From Parabacteroides gordonii MS-1 = DSM 23371 (GTDB taxonomy: Bacteria > Bacteroidota > Bacteroidia > Bacteroidales > Tannerellaceae), in assembly GCF_000969825.1 (NCBI RefSeq), contig NZ_KQ033920.1, positions 1,663,075-1,727,074 on the forward strand: a stretch of DNA of 64,000 nucleotides, in the 5' to 3' direction. Made by a program: the position numbers and the translations under genes. The notes under the pieces were generated by a model that did no database searches, was not told the DNA's origin, and saw only the letters and a program-made list of their open reading frames with translations. Below, piece by piece: positions 11,519-31,499 of this stretch; position 1 is the stretch's first letter, and each line of letters starts with the position of its first letter.

Positions 11519-12565
11519 ATGAAGAGTGAAGATTTTAGTTGTCCGGTTCCGCTGAATAACGCCGATTGTGTACTGATGGCACACGGCGGTGGCGGACGTT
11601 TGACGCATCAACTGATCAGTACAATATTTTATCCAGCCTTCCGCAATGCGCTGCTGGAACAGGATCATGACGGCTGTGTTTTTCCCGTTCAGGAAGGACG
11701 GATGGCCTGCTCGACCGACTCGTTCGTTGTCGACCCCATTTTCTTCCCCGGTGGCGACATCGGAGACCTGGCAGTGAACGGAACGGTGAACGACCTGGCC
11801 TGTTGCGGTGCCCGCCCGCTCTATCTGACGGCCGGATTCATACTGGAAGAAGGATTGCCGCTAGCCGACCTGCAACGGATCGTACAATCCATGCGCCGGG
11901 CAGCCGACAAAGCCGGCGTACAGATCGTGGCAGGCGACACCAAAGTGGTGGAGCGCGGTAAATGCGACAAACTATTCATCAACACCAGCGGTATCGGAGT
12001 CGTGCCCGAAGGCATCCGCATCGCCCCCGACCGTGTAGAGACCGGGGATGTTGTCATTTGCAGCGGGCCGATAGGGGCACACGGCATTACGATCCTCTCC
12101 GCCCGCGAAAGTCTCGGATTTGAAACAAATCTGAAAAGTGATACAGTTTCGTTAAACAATATGCTTTCCCGGTTGTTAAAAAATATAGAGGAAGTCCATG
12201 TCCTACGCGATCCCACACGGGGTGGCGTAAGCGGGACATTGAACGAGATAGCAAAAGCTGCCAACGCAGAGATCGTGCTGGATGAAGCCGCCCTCCCGAT
12301 CCCCGATGCCGTCAAAGGCGCTTCGGAGATACTCGGGCTCGACCCGCTCTATGTGGCCAACGAGGGATTGGTGCTGGTCATCCTCCCCGAAGCCCGGGCA
12401 CAGGAGGCGCTTGCTATCATGAAAAGCTTCCCGGAAGGAAAGGATGCAACAATCATCGGCCGTGTAACTGCAAAAGGAAACGCGATCGTAAAGATGAAAA
12501 CACTATACGGTAACTACCGCATTGTAGACATGCTGAGTGGGGAACAGTTGCCTCGCATCTGCTGA
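11519..12565 (+). CDS. hypE: Hydrogenase expression/formation protein HypE
   Basis: PurM-like ATPase that dehydrates a thiocarboxamide on its C-terminal Cys to thiocyanate, giving the cyanide ligands of the active site. 348 aa. N-terminal MAHGGGGRLTHQLI, DLAVNGTVNDLACCGARP and VAGDTKVVERG are family marks. The chain ends exactly in PRIC, with the acceptor Cys last, so the frame is complete. It is followed by an unusual array of 23-bp tandem repeats before the hydrogenase structural genes. Confidence 0.98.
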   Translation: MKSEDFSCPVPLNNADCVLMAHGGGGRLTHQLISTIFYPAFRNALLEQDHDGCVFPVQEGRMACSTDSFVVDPIFFPGGDIGDLAVNGTVNDLACCGARPLYLTAGFILEEGLPLADLQRIVQSMRRAADKAGVQIVAGDTKVVERGKCDKLFINTSGIGVVPEGIRIAPDRVETGDVVICSGPIGAHGITILSARESLGFETNLKSDTVSLNNMLSRLLKNIEEVHVLRDPTRGGVSGTLNEIAKAANAEIVLDEAALPIPDAVKGASEILGLDPLYVANEGLVLVILPEARAQEALAIMKSFPEGKDATIIGRVTAKGNAIVKMKTLYGNYRIVDMLSGEQLPRIC

Positions 12566-12570
12566 CGGGA

Positions 12571-12662
12571 ACCGTCAACGAGAGGCGACGACTACCGTCA
12601 ACGGGTGATGACGACTACCGTCAACGAGAGGTGACGACCGCCGTCAACGGAGGATGACGATC
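12571..12662 (+). repeat. Four 23-bp tandem repeats between hypE and the hydrogenase small subunit
   Basis: Units start at 12571, 12594, 12617 and 12640 with the core CCGTCAACG. Each contains CGTC and GACG that can pair as a small stem, so the mRNA could form four short hairpins. No spacer diversity is present, so this is not CRISPR. The array fills nearly the whole gap between hypE and the next gene. Confidence 0.85.
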
Positions 12663-12700
12663 ATCGCAACAAAACAAAGAAACCAATAAATTACTAAGAT

Positions 12701-16300: not shown

Positions 16301-16382
16301 GGACTATAGTGCTACGGGGTATGATACACTAGTGTTAACATAGCTGGCACTATAGTGTTGGTATCCCTAGCACTATAGTGCT
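16301..16382. repeat. Cluster of CACTATAGTG-type palindromes
   Basis: Four related palindromic cores lie in 82 bases: ACTATAGTGCT at 16303-16313, ACACTAGTGT at 16326-16335, CACTATAGTG at 16348-16357 and AGCACTATAGTGCT at 16369-16382. The last two can also pair with each other as a 10-bp stem with a 13-base loop. They fill the gap between the cytochrome b gene and the protease gene. Confidence 0.8.
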
Positions 16383-26485: not shown

Positions 26486-27427
26486 TTAAACCAACAGTAT
26501 TACACCCAGACTGATCAATCCGATAAATATCCAGAGAACAACACCTTGTACCATCGGACGCACGCCGACCTGTTTGATTACCTTACGCGACAGTCCGGCA
26601 CCGATCAGGAAAAGGGTAACGGTAAGGCCTTTCTTTGCCAGCCAAACCAGCGAAGCCGTAATTGTTTCGGGAATAGTCAGGAATGTGTTTGCCACCATTG
26701 CCAGGATGAAGAAGAAGATAAACCAGGGGATACTGATCTTCGCCCCCTTTTGCTGGAAAAGGAACATCGTTACGATCGTGATCGGAATAATCCACAAAGC
26801 ACGTGTCAGCTTGACCATCGTCGCTATTTCAAGCGCTTGCTCGCCATAAGCCGCTCCGGCACCGACCACCGAACTGGTATCGTGGATAGCGATTGCAGCC
26901 CACATACCGAACTGTTCTTGCGTCATACCCAGCAAATGTCCGATCGGCGGGAATATAAACAAGGCGATCGCATTCAGGATAAAAATAGTACCGAGTGCCA
27001 TCGACATTTCATTATCGTTTGCCTTTACTACCGGGCCGACCGCCGCAATGGCACTACCGCCACAGATAGCCGTTCCGGCAGAAATAAGATAGGCTGTCTT
27101 CCGATCCATCATCAGCCGTTTACCCAGGTAGATACCCAGCACCATCACGGCTACAACCGATACAATGGTGAAAAGCATCCCTTCCTTACCGGTCTTTAAC
27201 GACTCATGCAGATTCATACCGAATCCCAAACCTACCACAGAAAACTGCAACAGGTATTTGGATGTTTTCTTACTGAATTTAGGGAAAGGTTGTCCGGCTG
27301 TCATCCCCAATGCCAGCCCCAGAAACAGGGCTACAGCCGGAGAAATAAATGGAAACAGACAAAGGGCAAAAAGGAGAATGAAAAGAGGTTTGTTGTACTT
27401 CGCTAATACTTGTTCGATTGAATCCAT
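26486..27427 (-). CDS. YeiH-family (UPF0324) putative anion/sulfate exporter membrane protein
   Basis: 313 aa, nearly all hydrophobic, with about nine to ten membrane helices. Family marks are GLALGMTAGQPFPKFSKKTSKYLLQFSVVGLGFG region, AGTAICGGSAIAAVGPV and AIHDTSSVVGAGAAYGEQAL. The family is annotated as a putative sulfate exporter; the real substrate is unproved. In E. coli the homologue is controlled by a LysR regulator (YeiE); a LysR gene lies 4 kb away here, not adjacent. It has its own promoter at 27468-27499. Confidence 0.9.
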   Translation of the reverse strand: MDSIEQVLAKYNKPLFILLFALCLFPFISPAVALFLGLALGMTAGQPFPKFSKKTSKYLLQFSVVGLGFGMNLHESLKTGKEGMLFTIVSVVAVMVLGIYLGKRLMMDRKTAYLISAGTAICGGSAIAAVGPVVKANDNEMSMALGTIFILNAIALFIFPPIGHLLGMTQEQFGMWAAIAIHDTSSVVGAGAAYGEQALEIATMVKLTRALWIIPITIVTMFLFQQKGAKISIPWFIFFFILAMVANTFLTIPETITASLVWLAKKGLTVTLFLIGAGLSRKVIKQVGVRPMVQGVVLWIFIGLISLGVILLV

Positions 27428-27467
27428 ATTTTATATCATTTAATTATCTTTTCGTTTTTTGAAGGCG

Positions 27468-27499
27468 CAAAGGTATGATTAATAAGAATACCGATCCAA
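27468..27499 (-). promoter_or_regulatory. Promoter of the YeiH-family gene
   Basis: On the minus strand, -33 TTGG (27496-27499) and -7 TACCTTTG (27468-27475) are 20 bases apart, about 40 bases before the start codon. Confidence 0.65.
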
Positions 27500-27623
27500 T
27501 CACTATATGGAATGGTTAATAACCTGAAGTTATACATCATCCTGCTTCTTCCTACTAATGTATAAAGAAACAGCGCATTAGCTCAGAAAGTTGTAGCGAA
27601 TAAGTGATCAGAAAAATGGAATG

Positions 27624-27807
27624 AGTTCGGGAAGAACTACGTTAATTATGGTCGCAAAGATAGGTATTTATGCCAAAAACGAGCATAAATAGTGCTTGAT
27701 TTTTAGGCTTCGCGTAAAATACATACGAAAAAAGGGGATATTTAGCTGTTTGAACCACCTATTTCTGACAGAAAAGATCTTTTTCTCACCCTAGTTCTTC
27801 CCGAACT
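27624..27807. repeat. Candidate invertible promoter segment bounded by 16-bp inverted repeats
   Basis: AGTTCGGGAAGAACTA at 27624-27639 recurs as its exact reverse complement at 27792-27807, leaving 152 bp between. Each arm is itself a partial palindrome (AGTTC/GAACT around a 5-base centre), like recombinase sites. The enclosed DNA has a TATCTTTG box (27655-27662) that now points left. Inversion would place it at 27769-27776 pointing right, about 50 bases before the 27826 start codon. In the present orientation no TAnnTTTG box faces that gene. This is the layout of Bacteroidales phase-variable promoters. The rest of 27500-27825 holds no gene. Confidence 0.75.
27655..27662 (-). promoter_or_regulatory. 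-7 box inside the candidate invertible segment
   Basis: TATCTTTG on the minus strand followed by CGACC, typical Bacteroidales start context. The -33 region is poor: no TTTG at 19-21 bases, only a TTTTTGG 11 bases upstream. It faces away from the 27826 gene as sequenced. Confidence 0.55.
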
Positions 27808-27825
27808 AATCAAATTCAAAGCATC

Positions 27826-28608
27826 ATGGCAAACAATGAACCAAAGAAACGCAGCATCATCGGTAATCTGACACCGAACAAGATGACAGAACGTGAAGAT
27901 GACTTCACATTCAACACTATTTACGTAGCCAACCGTACGATAAAAGACCTTTGCCGACTCGCAGCCGCCAATAAAAGCAAGTTCAGCGCAACCGAACTCG
28001 AAAGTGCTTACAACGATTTATACGCTCAGGCGAAGGAAGAACTCTACTCTGCTTCTACCGTAGAATTCGGTTTCAGCAACAATTCATTGAGCGCAGACGG
28101 GCCCTTTATCGGCCCCGAAGCCAAGTTTAATCCTGAGGTCAATCACGTTGTTTTACATAGCTCTCCGCGTGCCGAGATACGCGATGAGATGAAAACGATA
28201 GATGTGATCGTGAATAAGGTGGAAGAAGGCATGCCGACCATTATCAAAGTTACCGACGTGGTTACCGGCGCGATAAATGGCAAAATAACTGCCGGCGGTA
28301 ACCTCAACGGCGAAGGCAAGCGTGTCCGCATTGCCGGAGAAGAAGGAAAGCCGGTCGGTTTCTTTTTCATAGCCGAAAAAGACGACACAGAAACAGCCGT
28401 TCCGATGACGTCGGTTTCACGTAACGAACCGACACATTTCTCGTTCACGATCCCGGCACTGGCCGACGGAAAGTATTATCTCGAAATAGCCACCCAGGCC
28501 GGAAGCAACAGCAAGACCCTCGTCAAAGAGGTGCGCCGCAGTCGTTTCCCCTATGTGCTTACCGTAGGTGCCGGTGGTGGCGAAGACGACCGTCCGGTCA
28601 TCGAGTAA
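27826..28608 (+). CDS. HU-like DNA-binding/DUF4469 domain protein
   Basis: 260 aa. The N-terminal ~125 residues (FTFNTIYVANRTIKDLCRLAAANKSKFSATELESAYNDLY region) resemble the HU/IHF-like domain that Bacteroidales pair with DUF4469, and the C-terminal half (residues 140-250) is a beta-rich DUF4469-like domain ending FPYVLTVGAGGGEDDRPVIE. No signal peptide. I do not know its function; DNA binding is inferred from the fold assignment. It is the first gene downstream of the candidate invertible promoter, and a large secreted protein follows. Confidence 0.7.
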   Translation: MANNEPKKRSIIGNLTPNKMTEREDDFTFNTIYVANRTIKDLCRLAAANKSKFSATELESAYNDLYAQAKEELYSASTVEFGFSNNSLSADGPFIGPEAKFNPEVNHVVLHSSPRAEIRDEMKTIDVIVNKVEEGMPTIIKVTDVVTGAINGKITAGGNLNGEGKRVRIAGEEGKPVGFFFIAEKDDTETAVPMTSVSRNEPTHFSFTIPALADGKYYLEIATQAGSNSKTLVKEVRRSRFPYVLTVGAGGGEDDRPVIE

Positions 28609-28646
28609 CCCATCCTCATCTCCCCTCTCCACACAGACGGTAGCCG

Positions 28647-28706
28647 TCTCCGAGGGGAGATGCCACCCGTCTCCGGTCGCAGACGCTTGTCGTCTCCCCT
28701 CGGAGA
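28647..28706 (+). repeat. GC-rich inverted repeat between the DUF4469 gene and the secreted protein gene
   Basis: TCTCCGAGGGGAGA at 28647-28660 is the exact reverse complement of 28693-28706, a 14-bp stem with a 32-base loop. No T-run follows, so it may attenuate or stabilise the mRNA rather than terminate it. Confidence 0.6.
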
Positions 28707-28766
28707 TGGGTGACGTAAATTTTAGTAATCAATTTTCAATCATATATGCAAAAAGAATTTATAGGT

Positions 28767-31442
28767 ATGAAACAACAGATGCGATCGATAACTTTATTTT
28801 GTCTGCTGATGCTTTTATACACAGGGAAAGGCTATGGACAAGCAAAACTAAAGACAAATATCGGAGATTCAGGCCTGACAATAGTCACCGAAGGGAGCAG
28901 TCCGGATGATTATGAATATACATTAACAACAGATGACTTTTATCACGTAAATGTATTAACGATTAAAAGTAGCAAACCGATAACTATTTCGGGAACTTCG
29001 TCCGATAATATAACAATAGCAGGAGGTGTAATAGCAAATGTAACAATCGATGGGCTATCGATCAAGAATGGCAAACAGGATGGCCCGTTCTCTGTTTCTC
29101 CCGATGCCACACTAAACTTAACGCTGAAAGGCAAAAACGAATTAACCGCAGAAAATCCGGACAAAAGCGGTCTCAGTGTTCCCGAAGGAGCTACATTATT
29201 CATCCGGGGAGAGGGGGAATTAACGGCAATAGGATGTTCGAGCGGTGCCGGAATCGGAGGAAATTACGATACAAGCTGCGGCAATATTACTATTGAAAGC
29301 GGAACGATTACGGCTAAAAATACCGACGATGGACCTGGTATTGGTGGGAGCTATAACAGGTCAACTAACACAAACAATGGTTCCATAACAATAACCGGAG
29401 GAAATATTACAGCTATAGGAGGATCTAAGTCAGCCTGTATAGGAGGATATGGTGGATATAATGGAGCGGGGACTGCCGGGGCCGGAACCATCCTGATCAC
29501 CGGTGGAGTGATCACGGCCTTGGGAAATGGTATCGGTGGAGGTGACAATAACACAGATGGTAAAATCACTATCTCCGGAAATCCCGTCATCAAGACAGGG
29601 AAGATTAATACGACAGATACAGAGAAAAATGGCGGTATTTTGTTTATTGGCGATAATGAGACAGCGTTAAAGAATGGATCTGTATACGGTAATACTATTC
29701 TTCCTGATGGCTATATCAACGAAGAAGGGACTACACTTACAATACAGGATGGAGCTTCTTTAATTATTGAGAATGACAAAACGCTGGTTAATAACGGGAC
29801 AATAAAAACAGAGGGAAGTGGAACACTAACTAACAATGGTACAATCCATAACACAGGGACAGTTCCCAACGGTGTTGATGGAGTGTTATCCCCCTATCCC
29901 ACTGTAAAAATAAACGATATTCTACCGACGAGCTATACTTATATCGGATTAGCTATCGAACCGACACCTACAGTAACCGACCAAAATAGTGGTAATACGT
30001 TAACACTGAATACTGATTATATACTTACTTATTCCAATAACGTAAATGTAGGGACTGCAACGGTAATAATTGCTCCCCAAAAGAATAAATACTTCGGTGG
30101 CAGTTCCGTTGAAAAGCAATTTACAATCACCGCAGGAACCCTCACTGTCACCCCGGAAGACGGACAGGTTCTTTATCAGGATGAGTCCACCACTTATTTT
30201 CCAACCTATACTTATAGCGGTCAGGTCAGCGGAGAAACTCCCGCGTTTACCGATCATCTGAAATGGGACAACAGCGACAAGAAAATTAAAAGTGGCAATC
30301 TGGCACTTGCCGACAACAATGCCGGTAACTTCAAAGCATCCAATTATACACTAACGGTTGATGAAACCAAATCATTCACTCTGATTGCCGAGAATATAGC
30401 AGATAAAGAAGCTACTCCGGAAGCCGCAGACGGAAATCCGAAGGTCAGCGACTGGTACACCGGAAATGTCATTATCAAAGCCCCTACCGACTTCAAGATC
30501 AAACAGACCAGAGTAACGGAGTTACGCAGTACAGACGACTGGACAGCAACCTCCCTCACCTTCGACCGGGAAGGCAAGCACACCGTCCGCTACCAATTGA
30601 AACGTGACGGACGCACCAATCCCCTTACCGAGAAGTCTGTCGATATCAATCTCGATAAGTCCGCCCCTACCATCGGTGAACCCGTAAAAGGTGCAGACGG
30701 CAAGAGTTTTACCCTCAAAGTGGGTGATGCATATAGCGGCATCGCTTCTATCACCTACAATCTGAACAGCGCAGGCGAAACAACCGTCAGCGACTTTACA
30801 CAAGGTGACAAGAGCTATACACTTTCCCTCACCCCGCTGGACTACGGCACGCATAGTATAGCGGTAACCGTTACCGATGTGGCCGGACATTCGACCACCG
30901 ACACCCGCAGTATCGAACTGAAAAAAACGGAGAATCCCGATCAACCGGTAGTGAAACCCGACCCAATCTACTATACCGTAACGATCCCGGCTGTTGAAGG
31001 AGCCACGACCGACCCGGTGGCGGGTGAGTATCAGGTGGAGTCATGGAGTAGTTTCCGCTTTTATCTCACCCTCGATAGCGATTATAACCAATCGGAACCC
31101 GTTGTAACAACCGACCGCGGTGAAACGCTGATACCGCGCACTTCCGATGGTGCCTACATTGTGAAATACGTGCGTGATGATGTCGCTATATCTATCGACG
31201 GCATCGTGAAGAACCCCGATCCGGTAGCGAATGAGGAGTTACAGACGGAAGGTATCCGTATCTATGCAGCCAACGGTTATCTGCATATACAAACGTCGAA
31301 GCCTGAAAAGGTGTATATCTTTACGCCCGACGGACGTTTGAAAACAATGCTACTTGTTACCGATAGCGGGGAACGGATAGCATTAGCGAAAGGTGTCTAT
31401 TTCGTAAAGGCAGGAGAAAGAGTATATAAAACGGTATTGTAA
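28767..31442 (+). CDS. Large secreted repeat protein with MBG-like domains and DUF6383-type C-terminal tail
   Basis: 891 aa from MKQQMRSITLF (an upstream Met at 28746 adds seven residues). Signal peptide at 1-23. Residues about 25-330 form a Gly/Thr/Ile-rich beta-helix-like region resembling Bacteroidales carbohydrate-binding DUF4353 repeats (GIGGNYD, GIGGSYN, CIGGYGG). An MBG-like segment follows (TYSNNVNVGTATVIIAPQKN), then Ig-like domains (SAPTIGEPVKGADGKSFTL, GTHSIAVTVTDVAGH). The last ~75 residues (VYIFTPDGRLKT then GVYFVKAGERVYKTVL) match the tails at 57.9 and 63.8 kb and look like a cell-surface or secretion sorting tail. Likely surface adhesin or matrix protein. It is placed to be controlled by the candidate invertible promoter. 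Confidence 0.75.
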   Translation: MKQQMRSITLFCLLMLLYTGKGYGQAKLKTNIGDSGLTIVTEGSSPDDYEYTLTTDDFYHVNVLTIKSSKPITISGTSSDNITIAGGVIANVTIDGLSIKNGKQDGPFSVSPDATLNLTLKGKNELTAENPDKSGLSVPEGATLFIRGEGELTAIGCSSGAGIGGNYDTSCGNITIESGTITAKNTDDGPGIGGSYNRSTNTNNGSITITGGNITAIGGSKSACIGGYGGYNGAGTAGAGTILITGGVITALGNGIGGGDNNTDGKITISGNPVIKTGKINTTDTEKNGGILFIGDNETALKNGSVYGNTILPDGYINEEGTTLTIQDGASLIIENDKTLVNNGTIKTEGSGTLTNNGTIHNTGTVPNGVDGVLSPYPTVKINDILPTSYTYIGLAIEPTPTVTDQNSGNTLTLNTDYILTYSNNVNVGTATVIIAPQKNKYFGGSSVEKQFTITAGTLTVTPEDGQVLYQDESTTYFPTYTYSGQVSGETPAFTDHLKWDNSDKKIKSGNLALADNNAGNFKASNYTLTVDETKSFTLIAENIADKEATPEAADGNPKVSDWYTGNVIIKAPTDFKIKQTRVTELRSTDDWTATSLTFDREGKHTVRYQLKRDGRTNPLTEKSVDINLDKSAPTIGEPVKGADGKSFTLKVGDAYSGIASITYNLNSAGETTVSDFTQGDKSYTLSLTPLDYGTHSIAVTVTDVAGHSTTDTRSIELKKTENPDQPVVKPDPIYYTVTIPAVEGATTDPVAGEYQVESWSSFRFYLTLDSDYNQSEPVVTTDRGETLIPRTSDGAYIVKYVRDDVAISIDGIVKNPDPVANEELQTEGIRIYAANGYLHIQTSKPEKVYIFTPDGRLKTMLLVTDSGERIALAKGVYFVKAGERVYKTVL

Positions 31443-31451
31443 AGCCGAAGT

Positions 31452-31499
31452 CTATAAATAAAGAAGGGGCTGTTGAAACAGCCCCTTCTTTATTTATAG
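31452..31499. terminator. Strong bidirectional terminator
   Basis: A perfect 22-bp stem (31452-31473 with 31478-31499) around a TGAA loop has A/T tails on both sides. It ends the rightward secreted-protein gene and overlaps the stop codon of the leftward LysR gene. Confidence 0.95.

Follow-up and report, generated by a model that had tools for sequence, protein, structure and literature searches.

A candidate invertible promoter ahead of an HU/DUF4469 and secreted-protein operon in Parabacteroides gordonii

Within the 64,000-nt stretch of the Parabacteroides gordonii genome that was analyzed (the window, to which positions refer), the region 27624-27807 most probably is a phase-variable invertible promoter, OFF as sequenced, whose segment presumably inverts at this locus; we put the probability of this reading at about 0.86. 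The same reading had been proposed in an initial annotation of the window, and it is supported by a site family with matched cores, a fixed distance between box and arm, one family member inverted between species, a homolog in the ON configuration, and the boxes at -58 to -63 of homologs lacking arms. Below, G000 designates the 6.79-Mb genome from which the window derives, other G-numbers designate comparison genomes, and L-numbers designate loci.

Results

The two arms (Table 1) read AGTTCGGGAAGAACTA and TAGTTCTTCCCGAACT and are, as the initial annotation had claimed, perfect 16-bp inverted repeats around 152 bp; the extended repeat is 18/19 identical. Taken singly, the arms are palindromic as well, over 15 bp of the form AGTTC-N5-GAACT, a motif that occurs twice in the window versus 0.04 times expected, a count of two being reached in none of 100 shuffles. 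The further claims on the promoter hold as well. The -7 box faces away from the gene starting at 27826, and nothing replaces it, as no TAnnTTTG points toward that gene across 27428-27825, the two boxes of this interval, at 27468 and 27655, both pointing away. With the segment inverted in silico, the distance to the ATG at 27826 is 57 nt from the start of the box and 49 nt from its end, where about 50 bases had been announced. Also the caveat of a weak -33 element was justified, with a TTTG situated just 11 nt from the box and similar weakness in the whole class. An Rfam search of the locus gave no match; elsewhere in the window, positions 2354-2450 match a group II intron (Rfam).

The outward box might instead be the fixed promoter of the leftward gene 26486-27427 (Cons_hypoth698), to which it points from a distance of about 230 bp from the gene start, the repeats being incidental. 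This is very improbable, since that gene has its own box, CAAAGGTA at 27468, which is also found in G037 and G012, where the cassette is missing from this site, and since outward boxes at HU/DUF4469 loci face genes of either strand.

Table 1. Features of the candidate invertible promoter and of the cassette to which it belongs (window coordinates).
Feature	Position	Strand	Remarks
Inserted cassette	27541..31489		Inverton, HU/DUF4469 gene, palindromic array, secreted-protein gene, terminator; delimited by homology breaks versus relatives
Left putative recombination arm	27624..27639	+	Core AGTTC-GGGAA-GAACT; exact repeat match
Predicted invertible segment	27640..27791		152 bp enclosed by arms
-7 box TATCTTTG	27655..27662	-	16 bp inside left arm core; points away from operon (OFF)
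Right putative recombination arm	27792..27807	-	Exact repeat match to left arm
HU-DNA_bdg and DUF4469 protein, operon gene 1	27826..28608	+	260 aa; PF14848 1.7e-12, PF14734 4.4e-22
Palindromic array	28635..28718		Between two genes; four 15-bp cores, 23-bp period; AGACG/AGATG-N5-CGTCT, fourth imperfect
Secreted surface-type protein	28746..31442	+	898 aa; C-terminal DUF6383 6.6e-7; signal-like N-terminus by eye
Terminator-like hairpin, operon end	31452..31499		By eye; overlaps 3' end of LysR gene

The presumed target of the promoter, an HU-like/DUF4469 gene followed by a gene for a putative surface protein, had been identified correctly in the initial annotation, which is to be amended in that the locus is one copy of a dispersed family of paralogous cassettes. 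Paralogous gene pairs exist at six other places in G000, their secreted partners having a similar C-terminus by eye, and eight partners examined in G000 and G037 contain GLUG, InlB B-repeat, and DUF6383 in varying sets, the one at L080 having no Pfam match. For the HU/DUF4469 protein itself, the PDB offers one weak relative (4fmr, E 2.8e-5); its structure model was poor (mean pLDDT 46.8) and was not used. Homology to G037 stops at 27540 and that to G012 at 27533, both resuming at 31490, and the distance between the flanking genes is 108 bp in these two genomes versus 4.06 kb in the window. The cassette is likewise missing in G002, where the flanking genes are adjacent (L055). As the ends of the insertion do not match the arm positions, the invertase is no obvious mover of the cassette.

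The arm sequence, initially called unrecognized, is no one-off: judged by sequence, the window arms belong to a genome-wide family of putative recombination sites with locus-specific matched cores. G000 harbors 54 exact AGTTC-N5-GAACT sites, versus 2 for a reversed-pattern control, and its full list contains 20 pairs of neighboring sites within 1.3 kb, 19 of which are oppositely oriented. Within all of these 19, N5 is identical, and 16 different N5 are represented. When one mismatch per arm was tolerated and matching N5 required, the fetched stretches of G000 yielded 30 distinct arm pairs, scattered over distant regions. Dyad symmetry in every arm would also suit operators of a dimeric regulator that are no recombination sites; this seems very improbable, as operators have no use for an N5 that recurs reversed in each of the 19 pairs and is mostly private to its locus, and as a segment of the family has actually changed orientation between species (see below).

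Similar numbers of sites were encountered in G012 (45) and G037 (46), with 2 control sites each, when 38 genomes of the genus were scanned, and G021 possesses 21 versus 2. The excess over control is smaller in G013 (25 versus 7), G014 (24 versus 7), G011 (22 versus 9), G002 (14 versus 2), and G003 (10 versus 2), and many others of the 38 genomes show none. Across 198 genomes of the order, G000 alone is far ahead (54 versus 2), with small excesses elsewhere, e.g., in G144 (12 versus 1) and G196 (9 versus 0). Several AGTTC pairs of G000 precede genes that are SusC-like by their ends, as judged by eye. Sites with a TAAAA core are found in G000 at C2:20, C2:6629, C3:81, C3:503, C3:7875, C1:3707341, and C1:3707718. 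Contig ends and SusC-like genes adjoin several of them, an arrangement reminiscent of a shufflon. The window arm core AGTTCGGGAAGAACT recurs in another species, at L058 (G009:C307) 203-217, before a SusC-like gene and near a contig end.

The candidate box is at a fixed distance from the arm throughout the family. TAnnTTTG lies 12-22 bp inside an arm in 45 of the 71 arm pairs from G000, G037, G012, and G014, which had been preselected for matching N5 and freed of the repeated fetches L185 and L186, whereas 200 mononucleotide shuffles of the 71 segments gave this geometry 1.4 times on average and 5 times at most. A consistent -33 element is absent from the aligned family promoters, a TTG starting 20-22 nt before the box in 11 of 44.

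For one segment of the family, and between two close Parabacteroides genomes, inversion just between the arms is evident from alignment. The loci L143 (G037) and L160 (G012) are orthologous, with flanks that are 95-96% identical and an inner 578 bp that is 90% identical but reversed, and in-silico inversion between their arms raises the identity from 495/947 to 776/848 columns. At this locus N5 is species-specific and yet matched inside each genome, which points to continuing exchange in the AGTTC family. The comparison of G037 with G012 comprised 15 locus pairs that passed the flank cut, 12 of them with an inner alignment (the rows for L107, L108, and L141 had none), and 1 of these 12 is inverted. 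L078 (G000) likewise appears inverted relative to L160 (G012), with an inner match that is weak (47 bits) and an identity that changes from 401/897 to 431/888; L105 versus L141 is mixed, and the remaining clear orthologs of G000 have the same orientation, in a comparison set of one genome per species. The search for an inverted form in related genomes, recommended by the initial annotation, thus succeeded for one family member; the window cassette itself is absent from its site in G037, G012, and G002.

G000 encodes 21 DUF4469 genes, 11 of which have an upstream arm pair, and in all 11 the arm-proximal box faces away from the gene; at L102 and L178 an additional TATTTTTG, 153 bp from the arm, points to the gene. 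Further OFF cases were found in G037 (6), G012 (3), G014 (2), G011 (1), and G021 (2) and one ON case in G020, so that HU-class invertons of seven genomes comprise 25 OFF and 1 ON, a count of 26 that includes orthologous loci (L080, L110, and L113) and imperfect arms (L072 and L206). Without four first-gene remnants, 21 are OFF and 1 is ON; in L056, L111, and L115 nothing but the HU part is left, and in L054 a short stretch similar to the N-terminus is joined to DUF4988. At L054 (G011) 987-1346, behind an OFF inverton, the HU/DUF4469-like N-terminus continues directly into the DUF4988 protein, an arrangement that would result from deletion of the first gene and its fusion to the partner gene.

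The single ON case, L237, is a homolog of the window operon in which the box faces the gene, and its box, arm, and ATG align gap-free to the in-silico-inverted window over 75 nt ending in the ATG. Its half-sites are degenerate, so that it may be locked ON. Four close homologs possess no arms, and three of them have a TAnnTTTG toward the gene, at -63 (L238), -58 (L239), and -62 (L241), the fourth (L240) having none. In G000, other members of the arm family, such as L076 and L095, have a box that faces an adjacent gene.

The lopsided orientation of the HU class (25 of 26 OFF) and the single inversion among 12 G037-G012 pairs weigh against the phase-variable reading. The segment might accordingly be a former inverton now fixed OFF, with arms that are intact but unused and a recombinase that is absent or inactive here. 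Such a fixed state would be in line with the uniformly OFF invertons of G000 (11 of 11) and with the lack of a recombinase linked to the AGTTC family, but it is improbable given the error-free 16-bp arms and their matching N5, members of the same genome, such as L076 and L095, whose box faces an adjacent gene, and an N5 that is matched yet species-specific.

No PF00589 match is present inside the window, and G000 as a whole has 66. One candidate for a master invertase was the 316-aa tyrosine recombinase at C1:56499 (L222), whose region is among the 9 of 20 examined without a local repeat of the CTTATTT type and among the 8 without any 16-bp inverted repeat. It is unlikely to be the invertase because no match at E<=1e-60 exists in G012 or G037, although both bear sites. 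Searching the fetched loci of relatives with 53 G000 integrases (tblastn) disclosed no convincing shared gene. Nothing could be learned from the co-occurrence of sites and recombinases across the 198 order-wide genomes, since G000 is far ahead in sites and excesses elsewhere are small. As a separate observation, CTTATTT-type local inverted repeats, about 400-540 bp apart, lie beside the recombinase in 11 of 20 tyrosine-recombinase regions of G000 (L213, L214, L216-L219, L221, and L223-L226).

Arrays like the one between the two operon genes (Table 1) are frequent behind DUF4469 genes. For the 21 genes of G000, the best self-match shift of the downstream region (15-49 nt) is 23 in 16 cases, 24 in 4, and 48 in 1, and an array score was passed by 15 of 21 DUF4469 downstream pieces versus 3 of 400 control pieces. 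With downstream regions of other species added, 59 of 65 have their peak at 22-24 or twice that, in a set that contains some loci twice, two weak peaks at 48 nt, and a few rows truncated by an early stop codon. Under strict criteria, 289 fetched loci, a set enriched in DUF4469 loci, yielded 53 arrays, all adjoining DUF4469 genes except the one at window position 12563, and 1 array was retrieved from a 3-Mb random control. Peaks at 22-24 nt are present in 56 of 177 gene spacers of G000 loci, many being weak and DUF4469 spacers being included. Further arrays of 23-bp period without an adjoining DUF4469 gene lie in gene spacers of a hydrogenase operon (window 12563-12670 and 16330-16380), which rules out an exclusive pairing of array and DUF4469.

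Spacers with arrays fold strongly, with z of -2.9 to -7.9 in 11 of 12 (L115, +0.96), but broken pairs of the array show no sense-strand wobble bias (46 G-T versus 42 A-C). Because this bias is absent, a DNA-level palindrome fits as well as an RNA hairpin, and the RNA-hairpin reading was not adopted despite the strong folding. The half-sites of the array vary from operon to operon, and proteins 65-71% identical to the HU/DUF4469 protein of the window go with other half-sites, a finding that does not favor recognition of a particular sequence by the HU protein.

Discussion

The operation of the phase-variable promoter may be envisaged as follows. Strand exchange at the AGTTC-N5-GAACT arms by a site-specific recombinase acting in trans would flip the 152-bp segment, the enzyme most likely being a Tsr0667-type tyrosine recombinase and the locus-specific N5 presumably confining recombination to its own locus. 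In the OFF state, the TAnnTTTG promoter would fire leftward, away from the operon. After the flip, the box 57 nt before the ATG would drive transcription of the HU/DUF4469 gene and then of the gene for the secreted DUF6383 protein, an 898-aa product for which a location at the surface is presumed.

Promoter switches of this kind are known, the target family here is little studied, and about 30 such candidate switches exist in G000. In B. fragilis, the arms of Tsr0667 reportedly have the consensus AGTYYYN4GDACT, and we take the window arm, read as AGTTCTTCCCGAACT, to fit this consensus, by eye and in one reading direction. Mpi, Tsr0667, and Tsr19 are described as master invertases of B. fragilis, Tsr0667 (BF0667, a tyrosine recombinase) having as targets three SusC/SusD clusters as well as nine further regions (PMC4747536). 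The regulon of Tsr0667 resembles the present family in that several distant regions share arms, here in 30 distinct pairs of G000, and differs in that the target in the window is an HU/DUF4469 and DUF6383 operon. In P. distasonis, Fletcher et al. reportedly found in 2007 phase-variable S-layer glycoproteins, with large surface proteins subject to promoter inversion at several loci. Going by this description, that system is alike in employing, in the same genus, promoter inversion ahead of large surface proteins.

In capsule loci of B. fragilis, promoter inversion is combined with a regulator encoded by the first gene (UpxY/UpxZ) before the surface genes, as outlined in an inversion review (PMC12632263); the first gene is UpxY there and HU/DUF4469 in the window. 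Inverton group 131 of hCom2 is presented as the largest Bacteroidota-dominated group, regulating TonB/SusD genes and having no significantly linked invertase group (PMC11892184); any identity with the AGTTC family would be a guess. The arms described in PMC12118408 and PMC8748976 are different, and our literature search found no account of this arm motif in an inversion context. Of two T. denticola proteins, TDE_2259 is described as resembling PF14848 and PF14734, and TDE_2258 is given as BspA (lrrA), a surface antigen (PMC12724145); the consecutive locus numbers hint at an equivalent gene pair in a spirochaete.

Whether the switch is the only layer of control in the cassette is a matter of speculation. 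It is conceivable, if rather unlikely, that there are two, the inverton acting as on/off switch and the HU/DUF4469 protein acting on the 23-bp array of its own operon and so setting the expression of the surface protein, by analogy with antitermination by UpxY. The literature searched gave no match for DUF4469, nor for HU-family proteins with palindromic tandem repeats.

If the two-layer proposal were true, the array together with the HU/DUF4469 protein would constitute an undescribed regulatory module of surface operons in Bacteroidota, and the array behind DUF4469 genes makes a role of these proteins testable. The phase-variable reading would extend promoter inversion to HU/DUF4469 genes and their secreted partners, with 11 such invertons in one genome, and arm motif and geometry would allow the state of each switch to be called from reads.
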